DNA of 64,000 nt, taken from the NCBI RefSeq assembly GCF_000003815.2, contig NC_049981.1, forward strand, positions 12,177,058 through 12,241,057, given 5' to 3'. Position 1 is the stretch's first letter, and every line of letters starts with the position of its first letter. The notes under the pieces were generated by a model. The model was not told where the DNA came from. It did not search any database and saw only the letters and a list, made by a program, of their open reading frames with translations. Both the position numbers and the translations under genes were made by a program. Positions 38,390-64,000 of the stretch are shown here, piece by piece. Source of the stretch: Branchiostoma floridae (Eukaryota; Chordata; Leptocardii; Amphioxiformes; Branchiostomatidae).

Positions 38390-41300
38390 TCAGTGTTGCA
38401 GCAGAATCTGAGGCAGTGTTGTTATACAAACGACCAAGAAAAGTACGAATAGACACCTGTCAGCAAATATGCCGACCAGTTTCCATTCGGCCTGAATCGC
38501 CGTCTGCAAATCTTTTCTCCTCTTTCTCCTAACCATTTCACAGAAGAGTTCTGTCATGACGTCCAGGCGGTGCTGCAATGTTTCCAACGCCCGCTTGAGG
38601 CGCTTTCCTGACCTTCTCTGAGACTTGTTACGCTTCCGTTTCTGTGAATGACGTAATGACTTTCCTGTGTCCTTCACTAAAGGCGGCAAAGGTCGTCCTC
38701 GATTGGTTACCTCGCTACCAATGTACGTCTCCGTCATTCGGTGATAGGAAAACATTTTGCGATGTTTGATGCCATTGGATGATGACGTTTTTGTGACCCG
38801 GCCATTGGCTGAACTGTGCTGTCCGTCATATTGATTGACAGTTGCTTCCCCGGTTTCACTGTCACGACTAGCTATGCTGTCACGACGAATGACATCTTCA
38901 ATGTCATCACGGGGATACAAGATCAACCCGGGAGTCGGTCTTGGCCTACTCCCGAGAGCTATTCGTCTCAACCAATCAGGAACAGGTTCTCTGTCTGGTT
39001 CGGGAAAGTGGAAGTTCATGGTTGCCGCCGTCACGAGAGCTGAGAGTCCCACAATGACCAATATGGCGGCATAGAATTGACCTGGCGGGTGAAAAAAAAT
39101 GAATTTCAGCCTCGTACAATCCACACTCTTAACAAAAAGACATTTTACATGAGGTATTTGTTATACATTGTATAAACGCATTCCGATCAATTCTTTTACA
39201 TGAATATAGAAATCTACTAGCATGATGGGATACAAGAATGCATTTGGGCTGCGTATGCGCTCTACACAAATTGGCTGGACGAAGAATTTCCTTTAACGCA
39301 AGTAAAATCAAAGATATTCAAATTTCAAATCTCACCAAGCACAGGGACATCGTGTGAATCCGGCGGAAGTTTTTCGGCCAAAAGTTGCAGGTAAAACACG
39401 ACCGAGAGCAGCATGGTGATACTCAGCGACAACTTTTCCTCGCAATCCGGTGGCAGCCAAAACCCCACCAGAGTCAAAACCATGATGATGACGCAGGGCG
39501 ACACGAAGTAGTAGTAGTAGTAAAGGGGACGGCGAACTATCTTGATGTAGTACATCACGTCTACGTAAGGGTGTGGACAACAGCTGTACAGTTCGACGTT
39601 CCGTTCGGCTATCATGGACACCAGTTCCCACTCCTCGTTCTGTACGGTACCGGTGATATCGCCCGCAGACGACATGTTGTAAAGGTCCAAGGCTTGGATG
39701 TCGCTGGTCCAGGAGCCAAATTGTAGAGGGCAAATCTGCGATTAAAAAAAAACGAATCAACGGTTTACTGAAAGGGAATAAACGAATGGTTTGCTTGTTG
39801 TATAATGTATTAGGAAAACGTACATCGCCATCAAAGAATACTACCGCAGTCAAACCTGTACAAGTAACAATCATTACATTTAGGTAAGGTACGGACCACC
39901 TGGTCATTGTGACCACTTTTTGGCGGTCTCTTTGATGAATCTCCTTCGACAGTTTCAAATCTATGTAGTGATAATTATTCGAATTACGTGTAATCAACGT
40001 GATTCTAATATCGCTGTAAACAATTTCCCAAAGTAAAAATACAACCGAATTCCACAAATGCAAAAATCCAAAAGCACGATCAGGACTTCGCTGCTTCGGT
40101 CGGTAGAAAAGGGCAATGCCATGGAGACAATTTTCAGTATATTCCTGTATTTCCTACCTGTTCGTCATTGGGAAATCCCAGCAGACGTTGCAGACACGTG
40201 CTCCTCATGGTGATGATGTAGCTCCACGTCACGTGACCTGTGTGGTTCAACTCTGCCCGCGTGTCTGGTATGACTATATCTTCTTCCTGTTGTCTGGGTA
40301 CATAGAGAATGAGTGAGTGTGGGAGTGAGTGAATGTATGAATCAAAGAACAAGTGATCATGAGCGAATAAGTGAGAAGCTGGAAAGGTGGTATTTGCAAG
40401 AAAAAGTGCAATGTTTATCTTTGTATGGTCAAGCGTAATAAACCACTGCTTTGTTTATTGGTACTCAAGCACATTCGTATGTATGATGCCCAGCCCCCAG
40501 CTCTGTCCTGACACTCGCTACATTACAAAATTGACTACCACAAAGTCTCTTTTACACCCCCAGTAACCATGGCGACAGCCGGTTGGTCCAGGTCATTGAC
40601 CTTATTTGTTCTGGAGCGGAAGAGTAAGAGGAGGAAACGCAGCAAAAATAATGTTTCCTTTCTGAGACAATAAACATAAATAAATAAAAAATGTCAGAGC
40701 GGAGAAACATATACCACATGTTTGCTATTGATACCGTGTCTTATTCTATTAATCACCTGTTGAAGAGGTATATGTCAGGCCGCCATATCTGTTCACTGGG
40801 GATCCTGATCTTACTGAGGCCGCTGAACTCTGCTGGGTCCCAGACAAGGAACTCGTCCTTCCAGTACTGGGGAGAGAAGCGACACATATCGGACATATAG
40901 AAATCTGCAGTTCCACTCAAATCCCAAATAAGGAATGGTTTTGCAAAGATTGATGTGAGTTAAGCTAATGATGTGATTCACTTACATGTTTGACTCGTAG
41001 ATTTGTGATGAGCAACTGGCTTTTGGATACCTACAGAAAGAAACAAATGTGCGACAAAGTTTAAAAGATACAGATAACGTGTTTAACAAATTAGAGCATC
41101 CATAATGTACAACAAAAAGATGATTCGATTAATCATTACACTTCTTTGTTCTAGGTTTCACAACAAACTCAGTGGAAACTGAAATGCCGAATGACTCACC
41201 ACTTCTATGACTTGATGCAGAGCCACGTCCAGATAGACTGCTATCGCCTCCGTACTGTTGATCTTGGGTCTCACACCTGAGTTGTAGCCGGTCATCAACA

Positions 41301-43170
41301 CGGTCCTCAAACGGTTCTCAGTTGTAATGTTCAGCGCAGCTCCTAGAGCTAAAAATAACAGACGTTAACTTGATTAATGTCTGCGTGAATGCCATCTTTA
41401 AAAGGGTCGAGCTAAAATGTTTGTAAATGTACTAGGTCATAGCATTGGTTGACAGTTACGTCATATAGGTGTGTAACTTTGCATACTGATATCCAGTTAC
41501 CTACATTTTGTACGGGTATCTTTAGCGACAAAGCAACTGCATCTTTTTCTGGTGCGCTTTAAAGTTCAGGATTTGTTTTTGCTTTGTCTTGTTCTATGGC
41601 GATGACATGGTATTTTCCCTGCTAAGTAGCTGCTTGTAGGTGGGTGGGGGTGTTAACGACCATCGACGTTCCAGCTATTGTTAATTGAGACTTTCAACTC
41701 CTCCGAAAGGACACCAAACGCATTCTTCTGTTCTTAATTGAGCCTGACAGGGTGAAAAGCGGATCTTTGGAGTACTGGTTTGTAGGTTCAGCCCAAATGT
41801 CAAATATTGTGTCTGAAGGTAACGTTGCTATAACTTTGAACCACACAGGGTGCCTAAAGTTACGAGCTCTGGGGGCTAGCGTTATGGTTTGCTCGTTCCT
41901 TCGAACCCCCGTAGTGCCTAGTGGCACATAGACAGCATTGATGTTTCAGTGACAGGGTTTTACATTGTAGTATTGCTAGTCCTTCTCCTTTTACGGGGTC
42001 AAGGCACCACCTCGAACAAGGGACCCCAATTTACGTCCCTTCCGAAAGACGGGTGCAGGCCCAACCGAGATATCCCTCCTATAATTGAACCGAACCGGGG
42101 ATATTCTACCAATAAACAAACTAATTTGAGCCAGGAGCTAAACTGGGAAATAACAAAAAGCAAAATAATCTGTTAGATGTGTCATACGGTCATGAGCCTG
42201 AGAATTGGACCCTGTATGTAAGACTAGCGTATTAGGCCTTGGGGTAAAGTGGTGTTAAATGACGACTTGGTTAACTCCTATACGGGACGGAGATTTCAAT
42301 TAGCAAACAGAGTCTAGAATTTGTTTTAAAACGAACACACTAAAGTCTCACAATAGATCATAGATCATACGAGTTAAGAGAGTGAATCAGTATTGAACAT
42401 TCCAAGTCATTGTTACTGTAAGTAGAAGAAAATTATATAAAACTTGTGGAATACGAGTTAAAGCCAAGCGTTACGCAAATACTGAAGAGAATGCACTTAC
42501 ATGGTCTGCTTGACTGCTCACAAACAACGGTAAAATCCGTGAAACATCTAAAACTACACCGTGGGTGGATTGAATTTCCCCCGTGTAAGGCACGGCGTTA
42601 TCTCCCAATTGTTTGGCACTAATAGCGCACAGATTTTGCACATTGGTCGTCAAGGAAAATTAATTCATCATCCAAAATGAAAAGTAACTGTTGAAAGAAC
42701 GTCTGTGTTTTGCTACGGACATTTCGTTGAAACATCTGAGTCTCACAGAATACTCTTAGTTTAGTTAGCCTCAAAATTTAGAACTGGGACTCAAAAATGG
42801 AGATGACATAAAGTATAGTGCCTTAATGGGAGAATATAATTACCAGTGACTATGGGGATGGCTAGTTATGTCTACCAAACCAGTTGCAGAAATGATAGAC
42901 TCAGGGCAGTAGTCATAGACCAGGCAAGACCCATGTCTATGTAACACAAATTCTCGCTAGCCAATGCTCTATGCATGGCCCCTTCTACCCCTTCTTCTTT
43001 GAGTCTGACCAATGGCTGCTATAAGTATGGTTAGGCATGTCAAGACCGACCCACATTTAGATAAACACATGTACAGTATCACTAATTGCTATAACAGAAA
43101 TATAAACCATCTTACCTAAAAACATGACGACAGTTGTATATGTAGTAACCACACCATGGAATCCAGCCAT
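38390..43170 (-). CDS. Nicotinic acetylcholine receptor alpha-type subunit (gene A)
   Basis: Ligand-gated ion channel subunit of the Cys-loop family, expected at the plasma membrane. Seven exons, all with GT-AG and compatible phases: 43170-43116, 41348-41200, 41030-40986, 40866-40757, 40293-40158, 39735-39336, 39081-38390. They give 528 codons plus stop. Visible are a signal peptide (about 1-20), LMTGYNSGVRP, WRPDIYLFN (loop A), the Cys-loop C153/C167 with 13 residues between, W174 of loop B, Y215-S-C217-C218...Y222 of loop C with alpha7-like spacing, TM1-TM2-TM3, a long basic M3-M4 loop and TM4 near the end. M2 starts E-K-L-S-L-S-I and has E at 20', as in cation channels. Oddities: loop D has R80 where Trp is usual, loop A has F118 for Tyr, and the Cys-loop reads FPND rather than FPFD. 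Intron 5 holds a MITE end; intron 1 holds a SINE fragment. Confidence 0.92.
39839..39935. mobile_element. End of a tacagtcaaacctg-type element in gene A intron 5
   Basis: Reads ctaccgcagtcaaacctgt and then accacctggtcattgtgacc and ggcggtctcttt, matching the terminal and subterminal words of the element at 8692-9192. Only one end is apparent, so it is a truncated copy. Confidence 0.5.
41995..42056 (-). mobile_element. SINE core fragment in gene A intron 1
   Basis: On the plus strand gtcaaggcaccacctcgaac, then gggaccccaatttacgtccc and ttccgaaagacg. This is colinear with 60348-60405, where the same core follows a 5S-rRNA-like head on the minus strand. The head is missing here. Confidence 0.55.
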
Positions 43171-44614
43171 GGCGACTGCAGAACTCGTCACCAGTGTCCG
43201 TCTCGTGTTAGCCCACCTGTCCGGCTCGAACTAGTACCGGTGCAGAATCACATCAAGAGCACACGCTGATCCGGGAACACTTAACCCTGGATATATATCC
43301 TTTGTCCTAGATGAAACTTCCGGGCCTGTTTTCTTCACTTTCACCATACGTAGTGTAAGCAGGAACTTTACGCGTGACACTCAATGTACACTGAACAAGC
43401 ATAATGTAGCAGGAGGCCTACAACAAGGGACACTAATAACCTTCATTTTAGAAACATTACTCACAATTGTTCTCACTGTCAACGACAAATGTCAGACAGC
43501 GCAAATTATTTAGTCATCCAGCCAAGCGAGGGCAGGCCTGGGAAGCTTTACATTCTCCCAAGGACATGACAACAACACTCGGCCATTCAGATGCACTCTC
43601 CAGGCAAACAAAGTCTCGACATAGGCGAGACGAGAATCAACGAGATCTGGTAGTAAGAGGGCGACGCCATTTTATTTAGAATCTGAGCGCGCAAACAAGT
43701 TCCATTTTGTATTTGAGGAACACTCAACATCGGTAAGCCTACCCGCACACTATTTTAAAACCAAGAGTCGCCATGAGACATTCAAATAATGTTATTGACG
43801 TTGTCGTTTCGCTAGATATATTTTCCGCCTTCAAAGCTAGAACAGTATTTACACAGTTGCATAGTAACGCCCCACACAAACAAAGGCGGTCTCTACCGTG
43901 AGAACCTGTCCATTCAACCTGAACTGACTTGGTTAAGGGAGAACAAGCTATTCACCGCCGTTACTGACAAGGCTATCGGGTTATTTCTTTGTCCCGACAT
44001 TTAGGCTTCTCTGTGCACACTGTTTAGTTCTGAACTTACTTCTATCATTATGTTTAAAGTTCTCACACCACCACTCCATGCTTCACATTGATTATGACTT
44101 GTTTTTTAAGTCCACTGTCCAAAACTTTCATTTGATTCTCTTACGCAAAGTACCACAGCTACAATTGCTATTATCTGCGTAGAAACTATGATATCAAATA
44201 TATTATCAACTATAAAACTTACACCAATATCTATACATGTACCAGTGCTTCACTTTTCTTTCTTTTCACAGAACTCTGTTGATAGTTACAGAAATCGTCT
44301 ATCATTGATATATCAAATATGTACAAAAGTACAAAGCATTTTTGAGCCCAATGTATAGCTTTTTCATATTGCCTTACTGTGTCTTGTTTCTTAAACTTCA
44401 AAATCACCATTTCGTTCACGATAACGCCACATATGCCCATCGGCTTTACAACCAAACCTCCCATTTGCCATAGAGTAATGTACGATCAGACGAATCCATG
44501 ATAGCAACAACAACACCACTAATGAAGGAGAAATTCAGAGACAAAAGAACAACGCATCATACCGCACTGCTTATTGAAACAAAAATGTGAACGCCAGACA
44601 GTCTATAATAAAGC
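43171..44614. other. Spacer between nicotinic subunit genes A and B
   Basis: 1.4 kb between the start codon of A and the stop codon of B, both on the minus strand. It should contain the promoter of A and the 3' UTR of B. No exon, no clear TATA box and no nearby AATAAA could be assigned. Confidence 0.5.
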
Positions 44615-47415
44615 TTACACAAGTATGGCTGTTGTAGTGATAGTAGCTATTATCACAAAGATGACGAGAAGACATTTGTCCACAAAGATGGCGACCAACT
44701 TCCAGTCCTCACTGATTTCGATTCTTTTGTCTTTCTTCAAAGACCGATGGACTATTTGACGAAAGAGACGAACAGCGTAGCTCAGTTTGTGTCGCAAGGG
44801 AGCCAGCAACTTTTCCTCCTCTGTATTTACTTTGGCGGTCGTTTGCTCAGCAGTTTGCGAACCAACCGATGAAGCGCTACTAGACATGCTGGTGAACCCA
44901 GAGTCACGCGTTTTGAGAGGCTTCCGGCGATTGGTCAACTCGCATTCTTCAGAGACAAGCGCTTGCTTCTTATTGGAATCCACGTCAGTGTCTTCGTCGT
45001 CCTGGTTGGTTGGAATCAGGCTAGCTTCGCTATTGGACGGGTACATGTCTGTGTCGGATGTTGCTGCCTGTTTTTTGCTGCTTCTCAAGGCGATGCGGCG
45101 GAGCCATGGAGGGACTGGCCTGGCGTTGGGGCCGTGGAAGTGGATTCCCATCACGAAAATCACCATTGCAGACGACAGGGACACAGTGAACATCGTTGCT
45201 GCGAAGAAGCGGCCTGAATATTGACGGAGACAAACTTTCTATCAGTCATAGGAGAACAATTGCATACACACAACTAGGACTAGTCTATCCAACGGAAATG
45301 AAACGCAAGCAACTGTAATTCAACATAATGTCTGTGAAGTCGAAGTTGGTGTCCTTTTGCTGTACATAAGCATTTGACTTGATTTATAAAGCCTTAATTC
45401 TTTTATTTATTCTATTAATAGACAAAAGAATCCACACATGACACAATAGGCACAATGTCGAAGGTAAATTTAAGACGAAGACTTAAGACACTCACCCAAT
45501 ATGGGAATGTATCCCGAATGTGCAGGGAGTCTGTCGGCAAGTAGCTGCTGATAGAACACCACAGACAGGAGCATGGTCACGCTCACGGTCAGCTTCTCCT
45601 CACAGTCGGGCGGCACCTGGAAACTTATCAGCGTCAGGAGGACCAGGATCAAAGATGGCGCCACCAGGTAGTAGTAATAGTACAGGGAGCGACGTAATAT
45701 CCGGACGGTGTACGTCACATCCGGGTAGGGCTCCGGACAGCAGTTGTAGTAGGCGACGGTACGTTTGGCGGTCATGTCGAGAAGTTTCCACTCTTCATTC
45801 TCGATGACGCTCGAGGTGTCTCCAGTGGCGGTTTTGTTGATAAGGTCGACTGCAAAACCGTCGTACGTCCAGGAACCAAACTGGAGATCGCAACGCTGGC
45901 AACAAGAGGTTTGGAATTACCTGTTTGCTTTTGCATTTATAATTTTGAATAAGGGGTAGTGACACACATATTGCAAAGATAGTACACATATAAAAGAGAC
46001 GTGTTATATTTAGATATTTAGATGTAACCTACCTGTTCATCATTGGGGAACTGTTCAACATTGAGAATACAAGAACTCTTCAATGTGATTGGATAGAGCC
46101 ATGTGACGTCACCTTCGTACGTCACGGCTGCGTTGGTATCTGGTATTACAACGTCCTCCTCCAGTTGCCTAAGTTCGACAGCGAAATAAAGATACTTGAA
46201 TGAATCCAAATGGGTGAGTGAATGGAGACCTTTATTGTATATTTTGCCCAACTGAGTTAAGTACAGATCATGGCAACGTTTACAAAGTTTGCCGTACATA
46301 AGTTGGTACGAGTATCGTAGTATATATTAGGGTCTTCAAAATCTTCTACCGTCTTGGTGGTGATACTATAGGATTGTATTTTTTATCAAAAGTTATGAAA
46401 AATATACTTTCAGTTCAATTCTCCTTAGAACATCACTCGTACTCAATTCTACACGACATAGCACAGTCCTGAATTTTCTCAATAAATCTCGAAGTTGAAT
46501 TACGTGTTTCACAATTGCCACACCCTTTTCTGAACAAAAAAGCACATTGGGCATATTGTACATATGTGAATGCTGTTTTATAACAGACGTCGACGTTAAT
46601 GGAAAAATCTAAGGATAAAGGTACAACGACTGTGATAGTGTTATAGTGCATACCTGTTGTAAAGAACGATATCCGGCCGCCATATTTGTTCGCTGGGTAT
46701 TCTGATCGCTCTCAGATCACCATGGTTACTGGGGTCCCACACGAGATACTCATCTCTCCAATACTGTAGAATAACAAGGAGAAAGTAAGTACACATACAT
46801 CAGTTGTTTTTATCTTAAAATTCGTATGTCCAACATCATCATTATAACTTCTGTTGTAGTTTGTACGTATTGTAGAATATGACAGATCAAAACATTAAAT
46901 CAAAGTCACTGTTTTAGTCATTTTGCAAATAATGTGTTGGGTCTACCTTATTCAAACTGCTCAGTAATATTCATAGCGTATGAATGCAACTTTTGTGTGT
47001 CTTGTGTCAACTTTCTTCTTCTATTACTGAACGGAACTAAACTTCTTGTGTCGTGACAGCGTCTTGGAATTGTCAGTCATTTCTTTCCAACTAGCCAGGG
47101 TACCATTCAAGTTTCACAAACAAGCAAATTACTCATAGTCACGTAAATTGAGTTGATAGGTGATTAGGCTCTCAAAGGGTTAAAAAGAGATTTGCACCTA
47201 CCTGCCGAACCCACAAGTTTGTTATCATGACTCGGTCCTTCGATATCTACGGGATGGAAATGAAAAACAAATGTTGACATTAAGGTGTTTGAAGGAATTG
47301 ATAACCATCAATTATCAAGTTATGCTGCGTCACAGGCACTACAAGTGTTTATTCTCAAGCTCTTAATACGGTGTAATGGTACGCGCGAGCATACACATGA
47401 CATTGTGCACAGGCA

Positions 47416-47470
<55 letters not shown>

Positions 47471-50400
47471 TTTCTATTTCGATTTACTTAATATGAACAT
47501 ATTAGACGTTTGTTTTGTTAACGTTAATTGTATTTTTAGTGCTACAAGTTCGTGTCCTCAGCTTGCTGCTGAATTGAAAAGGTCGTCTGTGAAGAACACT
47601 ACACTTAGAGGAAGTTAGAGACATGATGCATATGGTGTAAGCTGATTACGTCAGGGGGGAGCCTATCGGACAAAGCACATAGTTTGCCTCTTACCCGCCT
47701 TGAATTTCTTAAAGCTAGTTCACTACGGATCGGAGCCATACACCCTCATACACAAACACACATTGCAGCAAAACCATATAACGTTATAGATGTACGTGCA
47801 GAAATACGCTCTCAAACGAAATTTAATGATGCTTTACACATATGCTGGCCTAAGCTACACTCAATATCCATGTTCCTGCTTACTCATTGACCAGGTTTCT
47901 GAAACCAGAAACCCACCCACACCACTCATTGAAATATACCATACCCTGGCACGGAAGGAGATTTTTAAAAAATTGCATTTTACATTTTTGTTTGTTTCAA
48001 TGAAGACATCTGATTTTGGAAATGGCGGGCCAAATTTTCAGGTGAGGCACAAAGAAATCCTCTTCGCAAATACGTATCGGTATTCAGCCAGGCTGTGTAA
48101 TCCACCTCTTAGCTCCCTACTCTTGATTCTGTATTTGTTTTGCTCGCAGAAATCTATGTCAAGCGCTGACCCGGATCGGAGAGAATGGTCGTCTCCACCG
48201 GCTTACTCCTAACAGAAGCTGCAAGTCACGCACAGTTCCTTTAAATCCCTCCGCGCTTATTCAACTCGCGGAAACCATGACTACGCATCCGACATCTGTT
48301 TATATACCCTTGGTTCTTAACACTCAAACTATGTGGTCGTCTCTCTCTCTATGCCTCTCTCTCTATGCCTCTCTCTCTACGCCTCTCTCTCTGTGCCTCT
48401 CTCTCTGTGCCTCTCTCGCTCCCTCTCTCTCTCTCCCTCTGTCTCTCTCTGTCTCCCTCTCCCTCCCTCTGTCTCTTGATCAAAAGTACAGAACAACATC
48501 CACGTGTTCCGGAGACCAAGGAGTTTATACAGAAAAGAGCTCCTTGCGGAGACTAAACACAGACGGGTAATTCTATAGACTGCATTTTCCCTAGACTCCC
48601 TTGCAGTCTTCGGGAAGGGTCTGTTGGTCCGCGATTTTCAACGTTGGCTATGTTCTATTGTGCCGGGAAAGGGAGTTTGTTGAGGAAGGGAGTTTGTCGT
48701 GATAGCGAGTTTCTGGCCCTCCCGAGAGGAGACCAACGCACCCCCCCCCCCAAAAAAAAACAGCCCCTTCCCGAAGACTGCAAGGGAGTCTACATTTTCT
48801 CGATGTTTTTAAAATTAGCGTTTGACCCTGGTCAGGACTGACTTCTATCAACACAGATGAGCTTTTACTCCAAGCTGTAATGTCAGCCTTGTCATGATGT
48901 GTCATGATTTCGATAGCCAATCAAACCATATCTTACAAGGTACGCACGATATGATAGTGGCAGATGTCGGGCTAACAATAAAACGATGCCGCTAATTGGA
49001 CAGTTATTTGAACCCACTCACCACATCGATGATCTGTCCGAGTGCGATGTCAAACGTGACTGTTACTGTATCCATGCTGTTTCTCACCGGTCTGCTGCCA
49101 GTGGTGTAGTTAGACATCAACACTTTTATCAGGGCCTTTTCTTCTGTGGAGTTAGTGCCCTCTACGATCACTGAGCAGAAACAAATGTAAGAGACGTTAT
49201 TCGGTCAGGATACATCATGATTAAGTTTGAAACCCTGACTGTTTACAGCTGGTATCTCACTGGACTAGCACTGATGAGGCACGTTGGCGGCATCGCTGCG
49301 TCCTAAATTGGATTTGTATCAGTCTTAACTTTGAATAGAAATATCATGCAAAACGTATACATGACGAAAAAGACAAAAAGATATGCGAAGCGTAAGAAAT
49401 ATTTCCTTTTTATCGATGAAATTCGCTGAGCGCGCTGTCAAATCACTCGAGCTCGGCCGCAGCGACGCCGCCAACGGTTGCCCCAACGTCTGGAGCAGTG
49501 GGATATACATGCACACATACCCCCTTATGCAGGGGTCACATTCCCAATTGGGAAGCCACGTTTGTTTTATTGACGCCAAATGTAATGTCATTGACTGTTT
49601 TAGTAACGTGTACACTTTACGGTAAATGTAGATACAAGGTGTAAAATGACTATCAAACATTAGAGTTAACTTAAAATGGCATTCACTTCAAAATAATGTC
49701 TGTACGTTCCACATGTTTGCTTGTATGGACCTCAAATTTGCATATTATCTGAAACGTCTGTCCGTGTCCAAAATCATATCCAGTTGCTTGTCAATAGGTA
49801 ACTTCCTTTTCGACGTATATCTATCAGCATTTGAGTGAAACAAAGCACACTGGGCAGAGGGAGAAATGAGTCAATGTTGAAGAATATGTTTGAGTATGAC
49901 GTTTAACGCACTAACGTCACAGTGTCAAAACATGGGTTCTCGTCTGTCAAATTGGCGGCTATTTTGGTAAAGGTTCATGGGAAATAAAAGAAAGTGTCAC
50001 TCTAGATTCAGGTGAAGACAAAGCGCGTGCAGTCTTCTTTGTTTGTAAAACGCACCAGTGAATATGGCATCACGTTGGTAACAATACATTCGAGTATCAC
50101 TCTGGGTAACTTACAAATACCTGGTCGCCACATAAGCGTAATATGCCCGAAGATGTTTTCAACAGCCCAAAGAGACTTTGAGAAGTTTCAAGTTATAACA
50201 CGAATCGCAAAATTGTTAACTAGATATCGATCTGAATAATGTCGTCCAGTGATACTGTAGACATTGTCGACGGGGGAATTTTTCCTTATCATCTTAAAAA
50301 TCGTCTTTTAATTCCACGTTACTCTTCAACATTGTACGCCCGTATGTAAAAATGAAGTTTTGGCGTAAGAATTCAAATGAATGCATTATTGTGTTGTTGA

Positions 50401-50668
50401 AGGCATATATTTTCATTTGTCGTTCAACTTTTGCTGTCGTAGGACGGACTTTCTACAACTTTGCTCTCGCAAGACAGGTGCAATTTTACGACACAAGGAC
50501 GGCTGTCTTGGCAGTATCGGACACCGAATCCGTAGAGTCCTAACCGTTGTTATAACACTATGTACTAATCCCAATCTACTGTGTCCAAATCAATACAATT
50601 CTTGAGTACTTACCTGACTGTATGACAACTCTACACACCAACACGAACAGCGCTACATATGTCTTCAT
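44615..50668 (-). CDS. Nicotinic acetylcholine receptor alpha-type subunit (gene B)
   Basis: Seven exons: 50668-50614, 49170-49022, 47246-47202, 46763-46654, 46168-46033, 45895-45496, 45213-44615. They give 497 codons plus stop. Every exon before the last has the same length and phase as in gene A, so the two are tandem duplicates. Visible are a signal peptide (MKTYVALFVLVCRVV), LWVRQ with W80 (loop D), WRPDIVLYN with Y118 (loop A), Cys-loop C153/C167 with FPND, W174 in GSWTYDG (loop B), Y215-N-C217-C218...Y222 (loop C), TM1 after RRSLYYYYYLVAPS, M2 with E at -1' and D at 20', TM3 and TM4 close to the C-terminus. Unlike A, the aromatic binding residues of both faces are intact, so B could supply either face of an acetylcholine site. 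The M3-M4 loop is acidic then Ser-rich and about 30 residues shorter than in A. The channel type is inferred from the family. Confidence 0.93.
47419..47470 (+). repeat. (AC)n microsatellite in gene B intron 2
   Basis: About 26 uninterrupted ac dinucleotides. His-Thr frames across it are artefacts. Confidence 0.95.
48335..48480 (+). repeat. CT-rich microsatellite in gene B intron 2
   Basis: Runs of tctctct, with tgcctctctctc units and then ccctctctct, over about 145 bases. Leu-Ser frames across it are artefacts. Confidence 0.92.
48592..48792. repeat. 28-bp inverted repeat, 201 bp span
   Basis: Arm tagactcccttgcagtcttc...gggaaggg (48592-48619) is perfectly mirrored at 48765-48792 (cccttcccgaagactgcaag...gagtcta). 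Poly-C and poly-A runs lie just inside the right arm. No coding frame. Probably a small foldback element in gene B intron 2. Confidence 0.8.
49251..49506. mobile_element. MITE-like element in gene B intron 1
   Basis: The left end ggtatctcactggactagca...ttggcggcatcgctgcg is mirrored imperfectly by the right end (cgcagcgacgccgccaa...agcagtgggata). The left terminus matches that of the element at 53382-53623 (ggtatctcactgcactagcg), so they are probably one family. Confidence 0.55.
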
Positions 50669-53381: not shown

Positions 53382-53623
53382 AAGGTGGTATCTCACTGCA
53401 CTAGCGTCACGCTTGCGTCACTGCGGGGTTCGAAAGATTCACGAATTTCAGAGTTAAAGAACGAATTTTCTTACTTTTTGTGTATTTTGTCGACTTCTAA
53501 TAAAGTCATACTTTTACGCAATATCTAAAGTATAAAAAATTGGAGAAAATAAGAAAACAGTGACGCAGTGAACGAACCCCGCAGTGACGCAAGCTTGACG
53601 CAAGTGCAGTGAGATACCACCTT
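53382..53623. mobile_element. MITE-like element just downstream of gene C
   Basis: 51-bp near-perfect inverted ends: aaggtggtatctcactgcac...gcgtcactgcggggttcg and its mirror ending gcagtgagataccacctt. 242 bp total, no coding frame. It lies within 80 bases of the gene C stop codon and so probably in its 3' UTR. Confidence 0.85.
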
Positions 53624-53701
53624 GAATGCTAGCTTCAAACGATGCTATGCAGTCTAGGAGGATTAGAAATTCTAGTATGCTCGCTTTTCTGTATCGCCAT
53701 T

Positions 53702-56700
53702 CTACCCAGCGACTAAAATGACGATTGACATGATGAACAAAGCGACCAGGAATAACACCACGAGGCACCTGTCGATCCGTTTTGCCAGGAACTTCCACTC
53801 CTTTTCCAGGGAGTTTTTATACGCCTTCCTCTCGTAATCCCCTATGAACTTGTTGATGTTTTGTTCAATTCTCGTGAGAGTACTCGAGAGCGTCTGAGCT
53901 TCGGGATTCGATGACGTAGTCTCTCCTGGAACGCCGTTCATCTTTACGGTGTGTGCACCTCCATTGCTGATGACCTTGACCTTAGCGGGGGCCTTCGGCG
54001 GGCCCAGGAAGAACAGGGTGCGGACCCACTGTGGAACGGGGTAGATGTCCGGGCCGCGGTAGTGCAAGCTGAGGACGAAGATGGTCATGGCGGACGACAG
54101 GGTGACAAGAAGAATGATTCCTCCGAAGAATTTTCCTGAAAAAAAATAAGGTTTCAACGTCAGGACTTCAATAAGGTTTCAACATGAAAATGAAACACAA
54201 TATTACAAAAAAACATCGCCATAAATCAAATGTAGTAAACTCATCCTTTATCCATGTTAGTTTTTGTTGGTACAGATCTGTAAAAAAATCAGCATTACTA
54301 CGATCAGTTATGCGTGTTATGCAAACAATTTTAGCACTGTCGTCGTAATCCATCGTAAATTTTCGTAATGCTTACCTATCAGTGGTATGCTTGTAGATAT
54401 CGGGGGGAGTTTGTCTGTAACCAGCTGCATGAAGACGACCAGGGCCAACAGCATTGTGATGCTCAGTGACAACTTTTCCCCGGAATCCGATGGCAGGCAA
54501 AACCCCAAAAGAGCCAGCAGCGAAAGGAGGAGACTCGGAGCTACCACGTAATATATGTAGTACAGAGTCCTGCGCGATAGTACTATGGTGTACTCGATGG
54601 TTGGAAAAGGCTCCCCCGATATGTTTCTGTGTACGTGTCTGTCTGCTTCAAACGTTCCCAGGATCCACTCTCCGTTTTCTATGAACTCTTCAGTGATACC
54701 TTCTGCCGTCATGTTCACCAAGTTTATCTTCTCACCACTGTAGGTCCAGGACCCGAACTCCAGCGGACATCTCTGGACGTCGAAGGGGAAGGCGGTGACG
54801 TCCAGGATGCAAGAGCTGCGCACGGTGACCGGATATGGCCAGAACACTTCGCCCGTGTACCGGATGATGGCGTTAGTGTCCGGAGTCGCTGACCAACCTT
54901 CATCGTGGAGCCTGTTGGACAATAGAATATGGGCATGAGGATTAAACAGTAAACTTGTCTAAACTTACAAGCCGACTTTCTTCCACATTCCTAAGGGTGA
55001 TACTGACGGTTTCTAATTCTAACTGCCTGCTAGGTGGCGCTGCAGTGGGAAGGATTGGGTCCCAAACGTGACTTAGCAGGTATCCCCATCTCATCGCGGT
55101 TCTTGACTATTTTAAATACATATGTGTGCGTGCGTGTGTGTGTGTGTGTGTGTGTATGTGTGTGTGTTCAAATAGGAATTTACAGCCACACACTGATTGA
55201 TATTTACTAGAATGACGTCGTTGATTTACTGTATAAATTACCTGTTGTATAGGATAGTGTCCGGCCGCCATATGTTCTCGCTGTTGATGTGCACCACAGT
55301 GATGTTGCCATTCTCCTCAGGCTTCCAGGTCAGAACCTGGTCAAACCATCTCTGTGGAGAAATGAATGAGTGAATCAGTTAACCAATATCAATGATCAAT
55401 CAACCAATCAATCAATCGATCAATTAATCAATCAATCAATCGGAACGGTTTATCAATAATAGAGAATAATACCAGAAATGTACCAAATTGCAATTGCAAG
55501 GGAATCATATGGTCTTCCTTGCTTTGTTCATCATTTCTCTGTCCTGCCACTTGCTTTGTAATGTAATCGGACACCACAGGGTGTCTGCTACTGTACCAAT
55601 AACCATGGTGACAGTCGTTTGGGACCATTTATTTGTTTTGAATACAAAAAATAAGAGGAAGAAGCTTTAGAAACATAGCAAAAATAATATTATCTCTCGT
55701 GGTGGTGAACATAATCATGAAACATTCCTCTTGAAGTAATAGTTGATGGGAAATACCACGAAGAGATAAACATCAAGAAATATAGTATACATCTTTATGA
55801 AAAACCCTTTACCTGGCGTATCCATAGGTTTGATGTCAGAACCTGCTCCTTGGCATTCTGTTAGAATAAGAAGAAAATGAGCCTGTCAAACTGTACACCT
55901 TGACCTAAAAGGAACATAAACAGGTAATGTGATAATTACAATATTATAATCATAATCTTTTTTACGTTTCTTTGTTATGAGTATGAACTAACGTAAGTAC
56001 AGTGACGTGAGCAATCCTTACCAGATCTAGAATCTGTGCCAGGACCACGTTAAACTCAACGACGATGTTGTCCAGCGGGTTCTGGACTGGTCGTGCGTCG
56101 GTAGAGTAGTTCTCCAGAAGCTTGGTAACCAGGACGTGTTCCGGTATCGCACCACCTAGACATTGTGATGATAGCAGTGGAAACAATGGGGAATTGATAG
56201 TAAATATTACCTTAAAAAATAGATGGTTTAGGTACCGCCCAATTGGTGCCTATCTACCTTCCCAGAATGCATCAATACACATCCAACAATACACACCCCA
56301 GATGGCTTACTGGGCCCACAATCATATGGATTTCTTACGTTACGTTACCTTTCAAAATACAGCATCTAGTACAATATTATCATNNNNNNNNNNNNNNNNN
56401 NNNNNNNNNNNNNNNNNNNNNNNNNNNNNNNNNNNNNNNNNNNNNNNNNNNNNNNNNNNNNNNNNNNNNNNNNNNNNNNNNNNNNNNNNNNNNNNNNNNN
56501 AAAATTGTGCCCAAACTTCACCAAACAGCAGTGTTTTTCTGAAAACACTATTGATTGATGACATTATACTACTTGCGCAGCAGAAAAACACAAAAGCACC
56601 AAAAAGCACCCATGGGAAAGTAAAGAAAAAGATATTTGATATATTGTTTTTGTAATAATTGTCGACAAATATCATTTTCTTTACTTTTCCATGAGTGCTT

Positions 56701-59700
56701 TTTGGTGCTTTTGTGTTTTTCTGATGTGCAAGTAGTATAGCATCATCAATTAATGGTGTTTTGAGAAAAACACTGCTATTTGGTGACGTTTGGGAACAAT
56801 TTCTGACCTGAATATTGCATCAATGTTTATCACACAATTTATAAAGTTGTAGGAAAGTAACAAAAATAAAGACGTTCTCATGGACTAATTAAGTCTGTTG
56901 ACAATTCGAGAATTTACAAATATACTGATAATATTGTACTAGATGCTGTATTTTGAAAGGTAAAATAAGAAATCCATATGATTGTGGGCCACAGTAAGCC
57001 ATCTGGGGTGTGAATTGTTGGATGTGTATTGATGCATTCTGGGAAGGTAGATATGCACCACCTGGGTACCGCCTGTCTCTATGTCTATTCTGTGTGTTCG
57101 TGAATAAGTTGTGGATGGTGGGGGTGGTGGGTTGGCGTCTGGAAAGGGATGGGCATTCTAGCGATTTTCTATGCTGCTGCAGAAGGACTTCCGGTTGTGA
57201 TATCTTGTGTTTTGGATATGTTGTGGTAATCAACTTTGAGTGGCAGATAGCTCTTCGGACTGCAAGTGACATAGTTATTGTCCCAAGCAGCTTTTTTTTA
57301 ACTATAGAGGCTGATTTCGTTTGAGACTTTGAAAGACAATAACTTAACGGATCGTCATGATTCTTTTTTTTACGCAGACAGCATAAATGATGATTGACAG
57401 ACATTAGCTATGAAAATCTAGATCAATTTGCATGATTAATGTGAAAATCATAGACGTCCACAGCGTTCCATGATAGGAGTACTATGCAAACTTGTGACAT
57501 AGGAAAGAGAAGAGCATCGATAGATATGAATCACACAGACACACCATATATCAAGTCGACACTGTAAAAACAATGTTATAGCGACTAGTGATACGCAACT
57601 TATCTTACATTGCACTAAATGAATTAAGCACGCTTTCAAACATGCGTAAAGGATGAATTCGTATGAAAGTATTATTTACGTATGCTTTACGTGAACTCGA
57701 AGCTCAGATGTCGTGCAGTGTTAGCAGACTGGCGCCACAGTGTGACGCACAAAATGTACACCCAAATGACCTTTACTGCATGAGTAAGACAATTGGGTGT
57801 GGACAAATGTTACAAATGTTACAGATTTCTACGCATCACTGAAGTAACATGTCGCAACAAGACAGTCTATGGAAACTTTAGACTTCCAAGAAACCATACC
57901 TGTACTGCCTTGTGGAATAACAGTGGACATCAGACAAATGAAACGTATGACAGCACGGATGAGGTCAATGACCCTGGGTGGCATTCCGAGACGTTTTAAG
58001 GACTGCAAAACAACAAAATCCATTGGTGAATGGTATACAAATTCAGAAATAGAATTCAATCAAAATGCGTTTTTGTCTCTTAGACATCTTGTGCTTGGTC
58101 AAGTACCTGTGCAGCGAAAGCTACATTCCAAGGACTGTAATATTGTGGAACTCATACCTTGACAAGTGCTTCCCCCCGGCCCAAAGTACAACCCGAGAGC
58201 CTTTGGATTCAAACCAACGTTTGTCAATATCTCTACATGGTTCCATGGCTTTTAGCTGATGAAACACTTTAAAAACTGCTTGTTGCACCCTTTCTCACAA
58301 GATAGCGGCTGAATATATTTGTAATAGTCTCAATATATTTTACTGTTTTATTTGTAACTGAAAAGCAAATAGGACATGTAAAGAAAGACGATGATTTCCT
58401 GCCAAGGGAATACAAGAGTGAGTTACACAGCTATTCTTGACAACTTTTTAACAAAGTTAGCAGAAAGTTTTCGATCATTCGTCTTCGCTCTATCCAATAC
58501 CTCTAATGACGTTAACGTCAATGGTGGTGAAATAATCCAAGGTCATTAAACAGTTGTCTGGACAAGGCTGTCGTGTGTCAGCTACAGTGGGACGAGGTCA
58601 CAAACTCTGATAATGTGTTAGGTGTCTAATGTTCCCAAATGGTTACAGTATTGTAAAGCGAGCCCAAATGCTGGCTACATCATGGATTTTAATGCGCTAT
58701 GACTATAGGCTAGTGACTAAGCCAGCACAAGTTCTTATTGACTGATTTCAATCATGTAACCCCACATTAAATCTTTATTAAGAATACTTATCGTAATCCA
58801 GTTTTTTCTGCTGAATCATGCTGACTTTTTGTTAAGTCTGAATTATGATAGTATTTACATATTACACTCCTTCAGGAAGAGTTAAACTAAAAGTCAAAAT
58901 CTTGCACACGTAATGAAAAGAATATCAAAGTGATTTAAACTTGTACTAGATACCTGGAGAGCCAATACGATAAGTATATAGGAGATTACATGACATGTCA
59001 ATTCAGATTCCAAACTGTCTGTAGAAAAAAAAACACTATTTTTTTGTATGCAAACAGCTTGAATGATGATTGACATCATCGTCAATCATGCAAATCAGGA
59101 TGTGAAAATCATACGAGTTCCATGCTAGGACTATTCAGTTGGGCAGCCCTGGCTGTGTGTTCTGAACAGCCAAACGGACAAATAAATATCATTTGACTAT
59201 ACAAATTCGTGATACACGTCACTGAGAAAGAGAGAAACTTCGACAGACATTAACCACACAGATCAAGACTTAATTTTCGCAAAGAGACCGAACACACCAT
59301 ATATCAAGTTTGATATGCATATCGAAACTTAAAACAATGTTCGAAGTTCTGTCAGTTCTAGATTTAGATAAGCAAAATATTGACAGCAATATTAACAGGA
59401 ACACACTTTTATAACCCCTCAAAATATAGACCAAGAATAGAAATGATCAAATTCGAACAACAGAAAATGACACAGAACAAGAACCATTTCATGTTTATGC
59501 GGCCTTACTGTTTCTTCTCTCCATTGAAATGATTCAATGTATACTTTCAGCTTTTGTGCTATGCACTAGCGCAGCAATGAAATGTGTGTCGTGTATCGAG
59601 TATGGGTGGAACAAACGTTAAGACTACTTTTATACGGACAGTGTTAGATTTATAGCCATGTGCTACGTGCCCCGGGGAAAACTATCAATGGCTTCAATTA

Positions 59701-61053
59701 CACGGACAGTTTCCTCAACAAAGAAACCGAATCCTTCAATTGAATATTCTTGTCTTGGTTACGTAATCTGGATGTAGGAATTATGTAAGAAAAATCAAAG
59801 GGTCGGTGTTTTGGCCAGGTTCTTTTAGAATGCTGCACGAGGAACGTTTAAACTACAGGACTAAGAGTCACGCACAAGACAAAGGCCATGCCGTTGACAC
59901 GCACGAGGACTGTGAGTCGGGAGTCGGGACCCTCTCTCTGCTTCTATCTCTGACTCAAACCACCCTCCAACTCTCAACTCCCGGCTGTCTTTATTCAGAA
60001 ACCCAGACCCAGGCAGGAGACAGTTTCACAGCATGTAACACAGAGGAACTAGGCCTCATATTCTATGTAAATCTTCACCTACATCATGACTTCTCTTTGA
60101 TGTACAGATATAGATTAAAGCAACATGATTTGCATCTAGACTTGGTGCGAACTTGCTAACTTGGTCATCAGAGGAATATCATTTACATAAAGATTAGCTG
60201 TTGCACTGACAGACTACATGCCTCACATTCATGAGGGTATGTTTGATACTAATACACATCAAATAATAATCATAATGATAATAATCATCTGGTGTATTTT
60301 GTCAGCCAGTAGGTACCCCAAGTATGAGTAATGAGGCTGTTTAACGTGGCCGAGGCACCTCCTCGAGCACGGGACCCCCGTTTTATGTCCCTCCCGGAAG
60401 ACGATTTCGTGGAAAACTTCGTGAGGCTACAGCAACCCTGACGTCCTTGGTTGGTCCCCCATCCAAGCACTATCCGGACCGCGCGTTGCTTAACTTCCGA
60501 GATCGAGGGATCGGGTGTACCAACGCGCCACGCGGCCGTAACAAAATATATCCAAAAACAAAACTATTACGATTTAAGTATTTCTGTCCCACTTATAATT
60601 AGGACGTATGATTCGTATAGTTTCTACATGTAACGGACTTTTTTAAGGACTGAAAAATCATAGAAATTGGCCTAATTAGGGAACATTGTACCAGAGGGCA
60701 GGGCGGCTTACTAGGGCACAGATTCGCGCGCCGAAGGTCAACGTTGGTTGCGAATGATAATTTCATATACACGCCTAAAACTTCCAGCCAAAGTCTACTA
60801 GACTATTTTTCCAGCAATACGCCGAGTCTGATAGAGACATTGAACCCACAAAAATGACCTTGTGAGACAACATATAGATCTTATACTGAAATAAGTACGA
60901 TTTGATACCATTTGAGTCCACACAAGTGAAAGCTGCCATGGGTTCACCCTTATATAACCGTACATTTATAGATATATCAGCCTATGCACACGCATTATTT
61001 CAGAACTTCACATGCATACCAACTATGTTTACCACGGTTAAGGCAAAGGCCAT
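53702..61053 (-). CDS. Nicotinic acetylcholine receptor non-alpha-type subunit (gene C)
   Basis: Firm exons: 56155-56022, 55857-55813, 55351-55242, 54911-54376, 54135-53702. A tentative signal exon 61053-61020 (MAFALTVVNIV, ending in a phase-1 donor) would complete 430 codons plus stop. That exon is short for a signal peptide, so the gene could begin elsewhere in 56156-63100. Visible are LLENYSTDARPVQNP, LWIRQ (loop D Trp), WRPDTILYN, a canonical Cys-loop with FPFDVQRC and 13 residues between the Cys, GSWTYS, TM1, [13 protein letters not shown] (M2, E at -1', D at 20'), TM3, a short M3-M4 loop of under 100 residues and TM4. Loop C reads ADRHVHRNISGEPFPTIEY: no vicinal Cys pair, hence non-alpha. 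The two exons around the Cys-loop that are separate in A and B are fused here (536 nt). It probably needs an alpha partner; that is inference. Confidence 0.88.
55130..55167 (+). repeat. (GT)n microsatellite in gene C
   Basis: tgtgtgcgtgcgtgtgtgtg and further gt units in the intron between the 110-nt exon and the fused 536-nt exon. Confidence 0.9.
56230..57075. repeat. Large inverted repeat (about 400-bp arms) in gene C intron 1
   Basis: The left arm runs from ggtaccgcccaattggtgcc through atctaccttcccagaatgca and caaaatacagcatctagtac, the gap, then ccaaacagcagtgtttttct and gcaccaaaaagcacccatgg. The right arm (about 56672-57075) is its reverse complement with scattered differences. The axis lies near 56655. 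The left arm contains the 117-N gap 56384-56500, whose content should resemble the reverse complement of about 56800-56935. The 177-codon plus frame and 107-codon minus frame here are repeat artefacts. Confidence 0.85.
56384..56500. other. Assembly gap (117 N)
   Basis: Undetermined bases inside one arm of a long inverted repeat. A hairpin-forming template is a plausible reason for the missing read coverage. Confidence 0.97.
58065..58262 (+). pseudogene. Possible LINE reverse-transcriptase C-terminal remnant
   Basis: The plus frame contains SYIPRTVILWNSYLDKCFP, which resembles the RT(I/V)xxWNSLP motif at the C-terminus of many LINE-type reverse transcriptases. The frame ends at 58260 with no further domain. 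Minus-strand translation of the adjacent stretch (57829-58059) also has a protein-like run (LKRLGMPPRVIDLIRAV). The call rests on one short motif. Confidence 0.25.
60250..60540 (-). mobile_element. SINE with a 5S-rRNA-derived head
   Basis: Read on the minus strand from 60540, the first 115 bases follow 5S rRNA order: tacggcc, cccgatc, gatctcggaagttaagca, gcttggatgggggacc, gttgctgtag. The internal control region (aagttaagca to ggggacc) is best kept. It is followed by a non-5S body with gtcttccgggagggac and ctcgaggaggtgcctcgg, shared with 41995-42056. An AT-rich tail of tgattattatcattatgatt type follows. 5S-headed SINEs (SINE3 class, several with a deuterostome-wide core) are known. Not a functional 5S gene: the sequence is diverged and fused to a body. 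Confidence 0.7.
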
Positions 61054-61357
61054 GAAAGTACAACGTACTTACCTATCTTATAGACCATAAAACGGACACA
61101 ACAGCCCCAGCTGAAGCGGATTGTTGAGTATGATGATACCCGTGGGATTAAACAACGACAACACACCCAGAAGTGACGAGTTATGTTGCGCATATTATGG
61201 ATCCCTCACAGATGAGCGATCAAAACTTGACAAACCAGTTACGTCATCGACGCGTCATTGTAATCAGTCATAGGTCAAAGGCCATCTTATACGTAGCCGG
61301 TGCAAGGTGGTGCAAGGATACAAGTAACACTCTGATTTTGTTTGTTTGAACCTTTAA

Positions 61358-61486
61358 CCTTTATTTATTCATGAAAGCTCAAATCGGCCTACAGACCGCT
61401 TTTCATTGAGGTCATGAGGGAAGAGGCAATCACCTCAATGAAAACCGGCCTGCAGGCCGACTTGAGCTTTCATGAATAAATAAAGG
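61358..61486. mobile_element. Hairpin element, 55-bp arms and 19-base loop
   Basis: Arm 61358-61412 (cctttatttattcatgaaag...ttcattgaggt) is mirrored at 61432-61486 with very few mismatches. The inner part is rich in cggcc words. No coding capacity. Resembles a minimal foldback or MITE copy. Confidence 0.85.
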
Positions 61487-61849
61487 TCCATACAAAATAA
61501 AACCACTACGTTTAGATTATTCAAGACAAGAACGACTTCTGCTTCTAGCCAGGCGTGTTTAAGTACTGTGTACTTGTGTTGGGCAGTTCAGAAAATAGTC
61601 AAACAGCGAACCAAGCAGAATGTGTTATCAAACAAATTTTCGTTTATCATCCAGCCATTCTATAACAAGTGTGGCACATGCATTTTATACGTTGCCCTGT
61701 TCATTATCATTGCCAAGCTGTGGCACTATATTCATATCTAAAGTATAAAACACAAAATGTCTTAGGACAGTCTATTTGGAAAATGCTATAGAAACTAGAA
61801 AGGCCGACATTTGCTTGAGAGCAAATACAGCATATTTCAGCCATCTCCC

Positions 61850-62500
61850 TCATGCAACAATAGGCCTTGAGGTCGTTGACCCCTTAGGCCATTGGAAAAT
61901 GACCCAAAAATTTCCCAAATATATCATTTTAAAGTGTTCCATGCCAAAAATTATAAATGGGTCATTTGAATAAATATCTAGAGCACCCCTTTACCAAATT
62001 TCGGGTCATTTGGTTGTAAAACGAGGGAACAGGAGCCAAAAATGTCCAATTTTTGTCAAAAAATGGCCATAAATCGCAATATTGAGCATTATGTTGCACT
62101 GTATGGAAAAACTGTTATTGACTTCATGTGCACATAATTGAAGGGCACTTTTATACCAAATTTCAGGTCATTCGGTTGTAAAACGAGGGTACAGGAGGCA
62201 AAAATGTGCTTTTTTTGTCAAAAAATGGCCAAAAATTGCAAAATTAAGCATTTTGTTGTACCATATGCCAAAAGTGTTATTAAATCTGGGTGGGCATATG
62301 ATCAGGGCACCTTTGTACCAAATTTCATGTCATTCGGCTGTAATACCAGGGTACAGGAGCCCAAAATATACATAAAAATTGACAAAAACCTCAATAAAAT
62401 CATTTTAAAGGCAGATATGAAAAAAATGAAAAAAACGCCTGGGGGTATTGGCTCACTCTACCCCTGTGCCCAATTTCAAGTCAATCGGTTCAGGAACAAC
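61850..62500 (+). repeat. 162-bp tandem repeat, about three copies plus partial ends
   Basis: The word ccaaatttc begins at 61994, 62156 and 62318 (spacing 162 and 162), followed by a diverged copy near 62469. Each copy has (g)gtcatt(t/c)gg(t/c)tgtaa, acaggag(c/g)c and caaaaaatggcc words. 162 is a multiple of three, so the last copies stay open in one plus frame with a 54-residue period (GTFIPNFRSFGCKT then GTFVPNFMSFGCNT). No splice signals or homology are recognised, so I treat it as a repeat. Confidence 0.8.
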
Positions 62501-63162
62501 GGAGATACCGTGTTCCGAAGATTTGACAGGAGAAAGAAACATTACGAATACAATATATTTCACCATACCCATGGTATGGCTGAAATATAATTACTGGAAC
62601 ATTCAGTGACATGAAAGATAGCCTTTATTGTATTCCTTTTTCGGCTAAGTGCAGGCATACAAATATAAAAGTAGCAATGATAATTTCAGAGACAAAGAAC
62701 TGCCAATACCAATCTAAAACATATGCTATAACACCACTCTAATACTTTTTCTTGTCTCTATTAGATGTTAAGAATATACGTGGAGTTAACTTTGTTTAAC
62801 ATTATTATGATAGTATTGTAAAAATGAATTGTTCAGTACTAAACGTCATAGACTCAAAGTGAAGAGACTTTCTTCTTTCTTCACAATTTCCACCATTACT
62901 GCATAAAGGAAAGTATAAAACAATTACTGATTTAATATGCTTATGACAAAAGTGATATAGGTACGTTTATTTTAATGTTCCCTTTACGTAATCCACATCT
63001 ATTATGAGTACATCTGTGCCAGTGATATTACAGATATGGAACTACAAAAATGCAAACACAGTGAACCTATCTTTAATAGTAAAATGAAGATGACTTTCTC
63101 GTACTCTGCCATCTGTAGTTACAATTAGTGTAATACTAAATGTAGTCAGACCAGCAGTGGAT

Positions 63163-64000
63163 TTAAGATAACAGAAGTACTGATGACATTATGATCAAGA
63201 TAATGAAGAACACGATAAGGAGAATTCTGTCCAAGACGATAGCCAGTTGCTGCCACTCATCCTCAATCTCTCTCTTCTTATCCTTCTTCTCGCGTTTGGC
63301 CATGAAGTAGTCCATGTTGTCCGCGATCCCCTCCAGCTTCTCTTTGTCGGAGTGGAGAGTTGCTATCTCCTTGTCTGTGGCGGTCGGCAGGGTTGACCAT
63401 TTGGGCCCATTCGCTGGGTTCTGCAGAATGACGAGGACCCACGGCTTGTCCTTAGACTTGTTCTCCAGTCGGCAGAGCTTCCGCAGCCAGTTCGGCACAG
63501 GGCTGATTTTGGGTCCACGGTAGTGGATGCCGAGGATGAAGATGGTCATGGCGGCTGACATGGCGACTAGGACGATCATAGCCCCAAAGAATTGTCCTGC
63601 AAAAGGGCAAATAGAAATAGACTCGTGTAATCCCACCACTGACACCATGTTGTGAAGTTTTTACAAGCTAATCTTCTGCACCATATACTGCATATCTCAT
63701 GCTTATGTAAGATATTTTCTAAATACCTTCAACATTTACTTCATAGATAAATCGTCTATTTAATGACAGAATATAGGAATACAATGTTGGTATAAATTTG
63801 TATTTTTGACTCACCAATAAGGGGAATGTTTGTGGAAGTTGCAGGCAGTTTTGTAGTGACCAGTTCCATGAAGACCACCAGTGACAGCAGCATGACGATA
63901 CTGAGGGACAGCTTCTCCCCGGAGTCCGCCGGCACACAGAACGTCAGCAGCCCGAGGACCACCAGGATGAAGCTCGTTGCCACCACGTAGTAGTTGTAGT
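63163..64000 (-). CDS. Nicotinic acetylcholine receptor subunit (gene D), 3' part only
   Basis: Two exons are visible: 64000-63815 (truncated by the window edge) and 63596-63163. They join in phase 1. The first reads from within TM1 ([20 protein letters not shown]) through [13 protein letters not shown] (M2, E at -1', T at 20'), ending LIG. The last exon is 434 nt, exactly as in gene C. It encodes TM3 ([20 protein letters not shown]), [15 protein letters not shown], a short basic-acidic M3-M4 loop and TM4 ending SSVLLLS. D is therefore the closest relative of C in the window. The ligand-binding domain lies beyond 64000, so alpha or non-alpha status is unknown. M2 lacks the acidic residue at 20' seen in A, B and C. 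Confidence 0.88.

Follow-up and report, generated by a model that had tools for sequence, protein, structure and literature searches.

Clusters that mix alpha-type and non-alpha nicotinic subunit genes are known in other animals, the vertebrate CHRNA5-CHRNA3-CHRNB4 cluster being one example. Among molluscs, tandem arrays of nAChR genes have been described in Crassostrea gigas, which has 25, and in Pinctada fucata martensii, which has 40; these arrays contain 2 to 12 genes, most of them intron-poor (68.1% and 82.1% of arrayed genes) (PMC6896357). Expansions of nAChR genes specific to amphioxus are also reported, with nine genes sister to CHRNB2/4/5 and four CHRNA1-like genes, and the portion of that report consulted here describes no tandem array (PMC6354393). 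The presence of an alpha9-like gene in lancelets is a matter of disagreement between papers (PMC6354393 versus PMC5401870), and whether the bilaterian ancestor had an alpha9-like subunit is an open question, to which the intron-exon structure and synteny of more genomes could contribute (PMC8634148). A literature survey, conducted on titles and the start of abstracts and with most subscription journals outside it, showed no nAChR tandem array in amphioxus or another invertebrate deuterostome among the papers listed.

The window analysed here, a stretch of 64,000 nucleotides of Branchiostoma floridae DNA taken as a whole, carries between 38390 and 64000 four nicotinic-type subunit genes in tandem, A to D, all head-to-tail on the minus strand (Table 1). 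Rebuilt from the sequence and from Pfam matches, this layout is the one put forward in an earlier note on the same DNA. The locus adds to an already known kind, the tandem nAChR arrays: it is a row of nicotinic subunit genes probably produced by old local copying of one ancestor and holds alpha-type genes and at least one non-alpha gene, a fairly ordinary but useful finding. It resembles the mollusc arrays in its tandem arrangement, but its genes keep ancestral introns. With the amphioxus expansions mentioned above it has in common that it comes from an invertebrate deuterostome and, as we infer, that it is lineage-specific; however, A-D group with neither beta2 nor Torpedo alpha1. We regard it as likely that A-D encode nicotinic-type cation-channel subunits, alpha and non-alpha, which arose through an old tandem expansion specific to their lineage and are predicted to form acetylcholine-gated pentamers.

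Table 1. Genes and other features located in the window, in the window's own numbering
Feature	Position	Strand	Basis or remark
Gene A, complete, 7 coding exons, 528 aa	43170-38390	-	splice model, Pfam LBD and TM, adjacent loop-C cysteines, tree
Gene A exons	43170-43116, 41348-41200, 41030-40986, 40866-40757, 40293-40158, 39735-39336, 39081-38390	-	
Cys-loop intron site, gene A	40157..40158	-	phase 0, between FPNDEQ and IC; absent from C
Gene B, complete, 7 coding exons, 497 aa	50668-44615	-	splice model, Pfam, ECD best PDB match alpha9, residues
Gene B exons	50668-50614, 49170-49022, 47246-47202, 46763-46654, 46168-46033, 45895-45496, 45213-44615	-	
Cys-loop intron site, gene B	46032..46033	-	between FPNDEQ and RC
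Gene C from exon 2 on	56155-56022, 55857-55813, 55351-55242, 54911-54376, 54135-53702	-	splice model, Pfam, loop-C cysteines absent
Gene D, 3' part only	64000-63815 (M1-M2, cut by window end), 63596-63163 (M3-M4)	-	splice model, Pfam TM (last exon), M2 sequence
Gap of 117 N	56384-56500		
Inverted repeat, 137 nt, 27-nt spacer	56502-56802		90% complementary; adjoins the gap
Short exon-like open stretch	57900-58002	-	AG to GT
5S rRNA-like stretch, full-length, between C and D	60424-60543	-	RF00001, 48.5 bits
Tandem repeat, 162-nt unit	61992-62367		2.3 copies
Repeat of 67-74 nt	40494-40567, 55537-55603, 31401-31474 (inverted)		
GPCR gene, rhodopsin-type, at least 2 exons	34695-36522	+	7tm_1, E 2e-19 and 9.8e-14
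Possible GPCR first exon	near 22708-22995		no Pfam match; link by eye only

Pfam nicotinic ligand-binding (LBD) and/or transmembrane (TM) domains were matched in all seven exon-level open reading frames (ORFs) tested, namely, for each of A, B and C, the penultimate and the final exon and, for D, the final exon, and each such match had E <= 1.2e-8, which rules out chance as their source. Both Neur_chan_LBD and Neur_chan_memb were found in A, B and C; D showed the TM domain only, its LBD lying past the window end. No Pfam match above the curated cut-off was obtained with 10 other ORFs of the window. The possibility that the copies are haplotype duplicates in the assembly was dropped, as the aligned proteins are just 34-51% identical, and so was the possibility of pseudogenes, given that splice sites and frames are intact in A and B.

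Kinship within the array was examined in a tree built under a mixture model from A-D (gene D being represented by 205 residues) and nine references, eight vertebrate and one nematode. Seven of the nine reference sequences entered as provisional ones: four of these were checked whole or nearly so and alpha9 over its ECD, alpha10 and ACR-16 remaining provisional. The four genes formed one clade (100/99), so that, on the evidence of this small panel, a single ancestor would be enough where the earlier note had supposed two ancestral genes; mollusc, annelid, insect, echinoderm, hemichordate, cephalochordate and cnidarian subunits are outside the panel, and denser sampling could break this clade. 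Within it, the tree recovered the two sister pairs anticipated by that note, A+B (100/99) and C+D (91/90), against the same nine references. Seven variant trees (without D; without A; without A and D; without 5-HT3A; with a simpler model; on the sequence from M1 on only; on the ECD only) kept A-D, or those of them present, together at 97-100 bootstrap. A and B were paired at 98-100 in all five variants holding both, and C and D at 98, 91, 92 and 74 in the four that held both, the lowest value (74/76) coming from the M1-on sequence alone.

Other pairings fared poorly. A B+C pair was rejected both on the M1-on sequence (p 0.0003) and on the ECD (p 0.007), as were a B+D pair (p 0.0003, M1-on) and a B+C+D group excluding A (p 0.0015). 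Identity over aligned residues is 45.8% between A and B, 50.7% between C and D (from M1 on) and 43.2% between B and C. Among residues found in no reference, 28 are shared by A and B against C, versus 8 by A and C against B and 8 by B and C against A; likewise, 11 are shared by C and D against B, versus 6 by B and D against C. Synonymous sites are saturated (pS 0.68-0.77), which rules out a recent duplication, and pN is lower than pS in all six pairs; taken together, these values point to old duplicates under constraint.

The exon lengths common to A and B had been read as the mark of a pair. The agreement itself is exact in every exon before the last (55, 149, 45, 110, 136 and 400 nt; the last exons measure 692 nt in A and 599 nt in B), and the 12 introns of the two genes are all GT-AG, with an open reading frame in each gene. 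Aligned with human CHRNA7, genes A, B and C agree with it in the column and phase of four introns, those that follow exons 2, 3 and 4 and the one in the M2-M3 linker. The CHRNA7 exon lengths used for this mapping sum to 1509 nt, which matches 502 aa plus stop and provides a weak check on them. Gene D also shows the M2-M3 linker intron at the CHRNA7 column and phase. The 55-nt exon 1 ends at residue 19, in phase 1, in A, B and CHRNA7, and the poorly conserved N-termini fall in different columns. Introns 1-3 are common to all vertebrate nAChR genes, one more being present in both CHRNA9/10 and CHRNA7/8/11 (PMC6354393), and a 45-bp exon 3 is also found in an insect alpha6 gene (PMC5111602). Most of the agreement between A and B is therefore inherited architecture. 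What is informative about their kinship is one additional intron. In A and B it interrupts the coding sequence in phase 0, immediately ahead of the second Cys-loop cysteine, and splits 536 nt into 136 and 400; C lacks it, and no CHRNA7 intron lies at its position. This Cys-loop intron is derived, and is the sole intron character joining A with B. The likeness to CHRNA7 includes the principal-face residues of B, but introns at the other alpha7 positions are missing, and alpha7 groups with C. elegans ACR-16 and not with A-D.

A comparable distinction applies to C and D. Their last exons do have the same length, 434 nt each, but its value as evidence of kinship is lost on inspection: M3 aligns in register 0 and M4 in register -1, a one-codon shift, and the loop between them shows 6 identities out of 73 without gaps, which is no better than shuffled loops (fraction 0.30 of 10000). 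The match is thus coincidental, compensating differences summing to equal length, and the C+D pair rests instead on the M1-M4 sequence. The M3-M4 loops of C and D are short, as had been noted, with 75 and 75 residues versus 161 in A and 131 in B, the anchors used differing by a residue between genes (D has 76 when counted to the same residue). The exons of C from the second on measure 134, 45, 110, 536 and 434 nt, 536 being 136 plus 400 without the intron; for D the window contains 186 nt from the 3' end of the penultimate exon, together with the 434-nt last exon. The structural class of D is not to be judged from exon sizes, since its LBD is outside the window.

No convincing candidate for the first exon of C was found in a scan of 56160-63100, although in the regions of A and B the same scan placed the respective first exons at the head of its ranking; the 117-N gap is inside the scanned stretch. 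Four candidates were considered, and the best-scoring one (57984-57900) was rejected because the stretch reads like reverse transcriptase. The exon-like open stretch at this place resembles, by eye, a piece of a non-LTR reverse transcriptase. The inverted repeat next to the gap may be a mobile element that interrupted the assembly.

Residues known to matter for receptor function, given here in Torpedo alpha1 numbering, distinguish the genes. Gene B holds all seven ligand-site residues examined (W55, Y93, W149, Y190, C192, C193 and Y198). Gene A keeps W149, Y190, C192, C193 and Y198 and differs at 93, which is F, and at 55, which is R in Torpedo alpha1 as well. In gene C, W55, Y93 and W149 are kept, Y190 and both loop-C cysteines are lost (I and S occupy the cysteine sites), and F stands at 198. 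By the adjacent loop-C cysteines, A and B are each assigned as alpha-type subunits, and the loss of this pair assigns C as a non-alpha subunit. The branch of A is long (1.03 versus 0.25 for B in the tree with nine references); together with the changes at two ligand sites, this suggests that the product of A may no longer respond to acetylcholine.

The Cys-loop spacing C-x13-C is present in A, B and C. Its FPFD motif is near-universal among nicotinic-type subunits, and is found in C and in all nine references; A and B have FPND. Given the tree, FPND is a variant inside the family and no ground for excluding the two genes from it, and the FPF to FPN change in two constrained genes is a Cys-loop oddity open to experiment. 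In cation channels, position -1' of M2 is E and position 9' is L. Both residues are present in the four genes, with a further E at -2' in A and B, and judged by M2 the products of A-D are predicted cation-type pores.

How A-D relate to described receptors is the point on which alternatives differ. They are possibly near alpha9/alpha10, and one may ask whether tandem duplication of an orthologue of the vertebrate alpha9/alpha10 subfamily produced them; we consider this possible, but the odds are against it. With the ECD alone, the best PDB match is alpha9 for both B (199.9 bits, alpha4 189.5) and C (172.1 bits, alpha4 164.1), and for A alpha9 (149.2 bits) comes right behind the alpha4 chains (153.8 bits). 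However, full-length B and the C model are matched best by alpha4, the only alpha9 chain among the 60 matches listed for B being a 218-aa ECD. A clade of A-D with alpha9 and alpha10 is not rejected (p-AU 0.196 at full length, 0.195 on the ECD without D), and two amphioxus sequences are reported to be nearest CHRNA9/10 (PMC6354393), but the free tree leaves A-D apart from alpha9/10 and places them, weakly (70/40), with alpha7 and the rest; a group of A, B, alpha9 and alpha10 excluding C and D is rejected. The motif HYxGPxxxPVPxW after M3 is common to C, D and the provisional alpha10 sequence, but PVPxW occurs in 5-HT3A too and may be ancestral. A position near the tree base is a further likeness to CHRNA9/CHRNA10; in contrast to these, M1 of A-D begins with Y instead of N, their M2 is polar at 16', and the loop-C cysteines are missing in C.

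The array could also be an old linkage of separate bilaterian alpha-type and beta-type families, comparable to the vertebrate cluster cited at the outset and involving no local radiation. That A and B are alpha-type and C is not would be expected of it, but the groupings C+D+beta2 (p-AU 2e-55) and A+alpha7 (p-AU 1e-43) are rejected and A-D come out as a single clade, albeit with a small panel, and we consider this origin improbable. Retroposition followed by tandem duplication, for which the intron-poor genes of the mollusc arrays offer a precedent, is hardly credible here, because four introns of A, B and C coincide in position with introns of CHRNA7, so that these genes are no retrocopies.

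An old tandem expansion from one gene remains our preferred reading, and the following history would account for it. A single gene that carried the introns usual for animal nAChR genes would have given rise to an A/B ancestor and a C/D ancestor, each of which would then have duplicated once more. The A/B line would have gained the Cys-loop intron and changed FPFD to FPND, and the C line would have lost the loop-C cysteine pair, yielding a non-alpha subunit. The products of the array would assemble as acetylcholine-gated cation pentamers, with assembly, ligand, current and co-expression all being predictions at this stage. Having both faces of the binding site, B could form homomers. A has the principal face, but with R at its own W55 site it would need a partner bearing W55, for example B or C; C might contribute the complementary face or have an accessory role. 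More tentatively, and on balance we would sooner doubt it, an early alpha9/alpha10-like lineage may have split by local duplication into three kinds of subunit, an alpha with the principal face (A), an alpha with both faces (B) and one that is non-alpha (C), a division of labour within one cluster that would be independent of the vertebrate muscle and neuronal receptors. If alpha and non-alpha roles did arise here independently, the cluster would be a natural repeat of the evolution of heteromeric acetylcholine receptors. The ancestral introns and the alpha9-leaning LBDs of two genes, B and C, also make the locus a data point for the bilaterian alpha9 question.

The rest of the window was searched for further copies. 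With the four proteins as tblastn queries and E up to 1, no additional copy was found, either in 1-38389 or in the spaces separating the genes; the strongest of the other matches, of B at 51918-51805 (E 0.011), has no recognisable exon in its translation and was attributed to chance. When the first 341 aa of B served as query, a viral contig collection yielded no match, and no relative was recognised among 14 pattern matches in a prokaryotic contig collection, little being expected of viruses or prokaryotes. No tRNA was found in the window.

Several repeated or non-coding features lie among the genes. The 5S rRNA-like stretch, the single Rfam match in the window, looks like a 5S-derived short interspersed element; the tail that follows it resembles, by eye, one in intron 1 of A near 42080-41960. 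A tandem repeat is located further on. The repeat of 67-74 nt is found in intron 4 of A, in the C intron before the 110-nt exon and, inverted, upstream of the array in window coordinates; as the host introns of A and C are at different places, it is a dispersed element. Finally, on the opposite strand, the window contains a rhodopsin-type GPCR gene, the 3' exon of which is nearest, among PDB matches, to the receptor for growth hormone secretagogue (ghrelin) (E 2.3e-8); chains of the bombesin and neurotensin receptors are close to this match.
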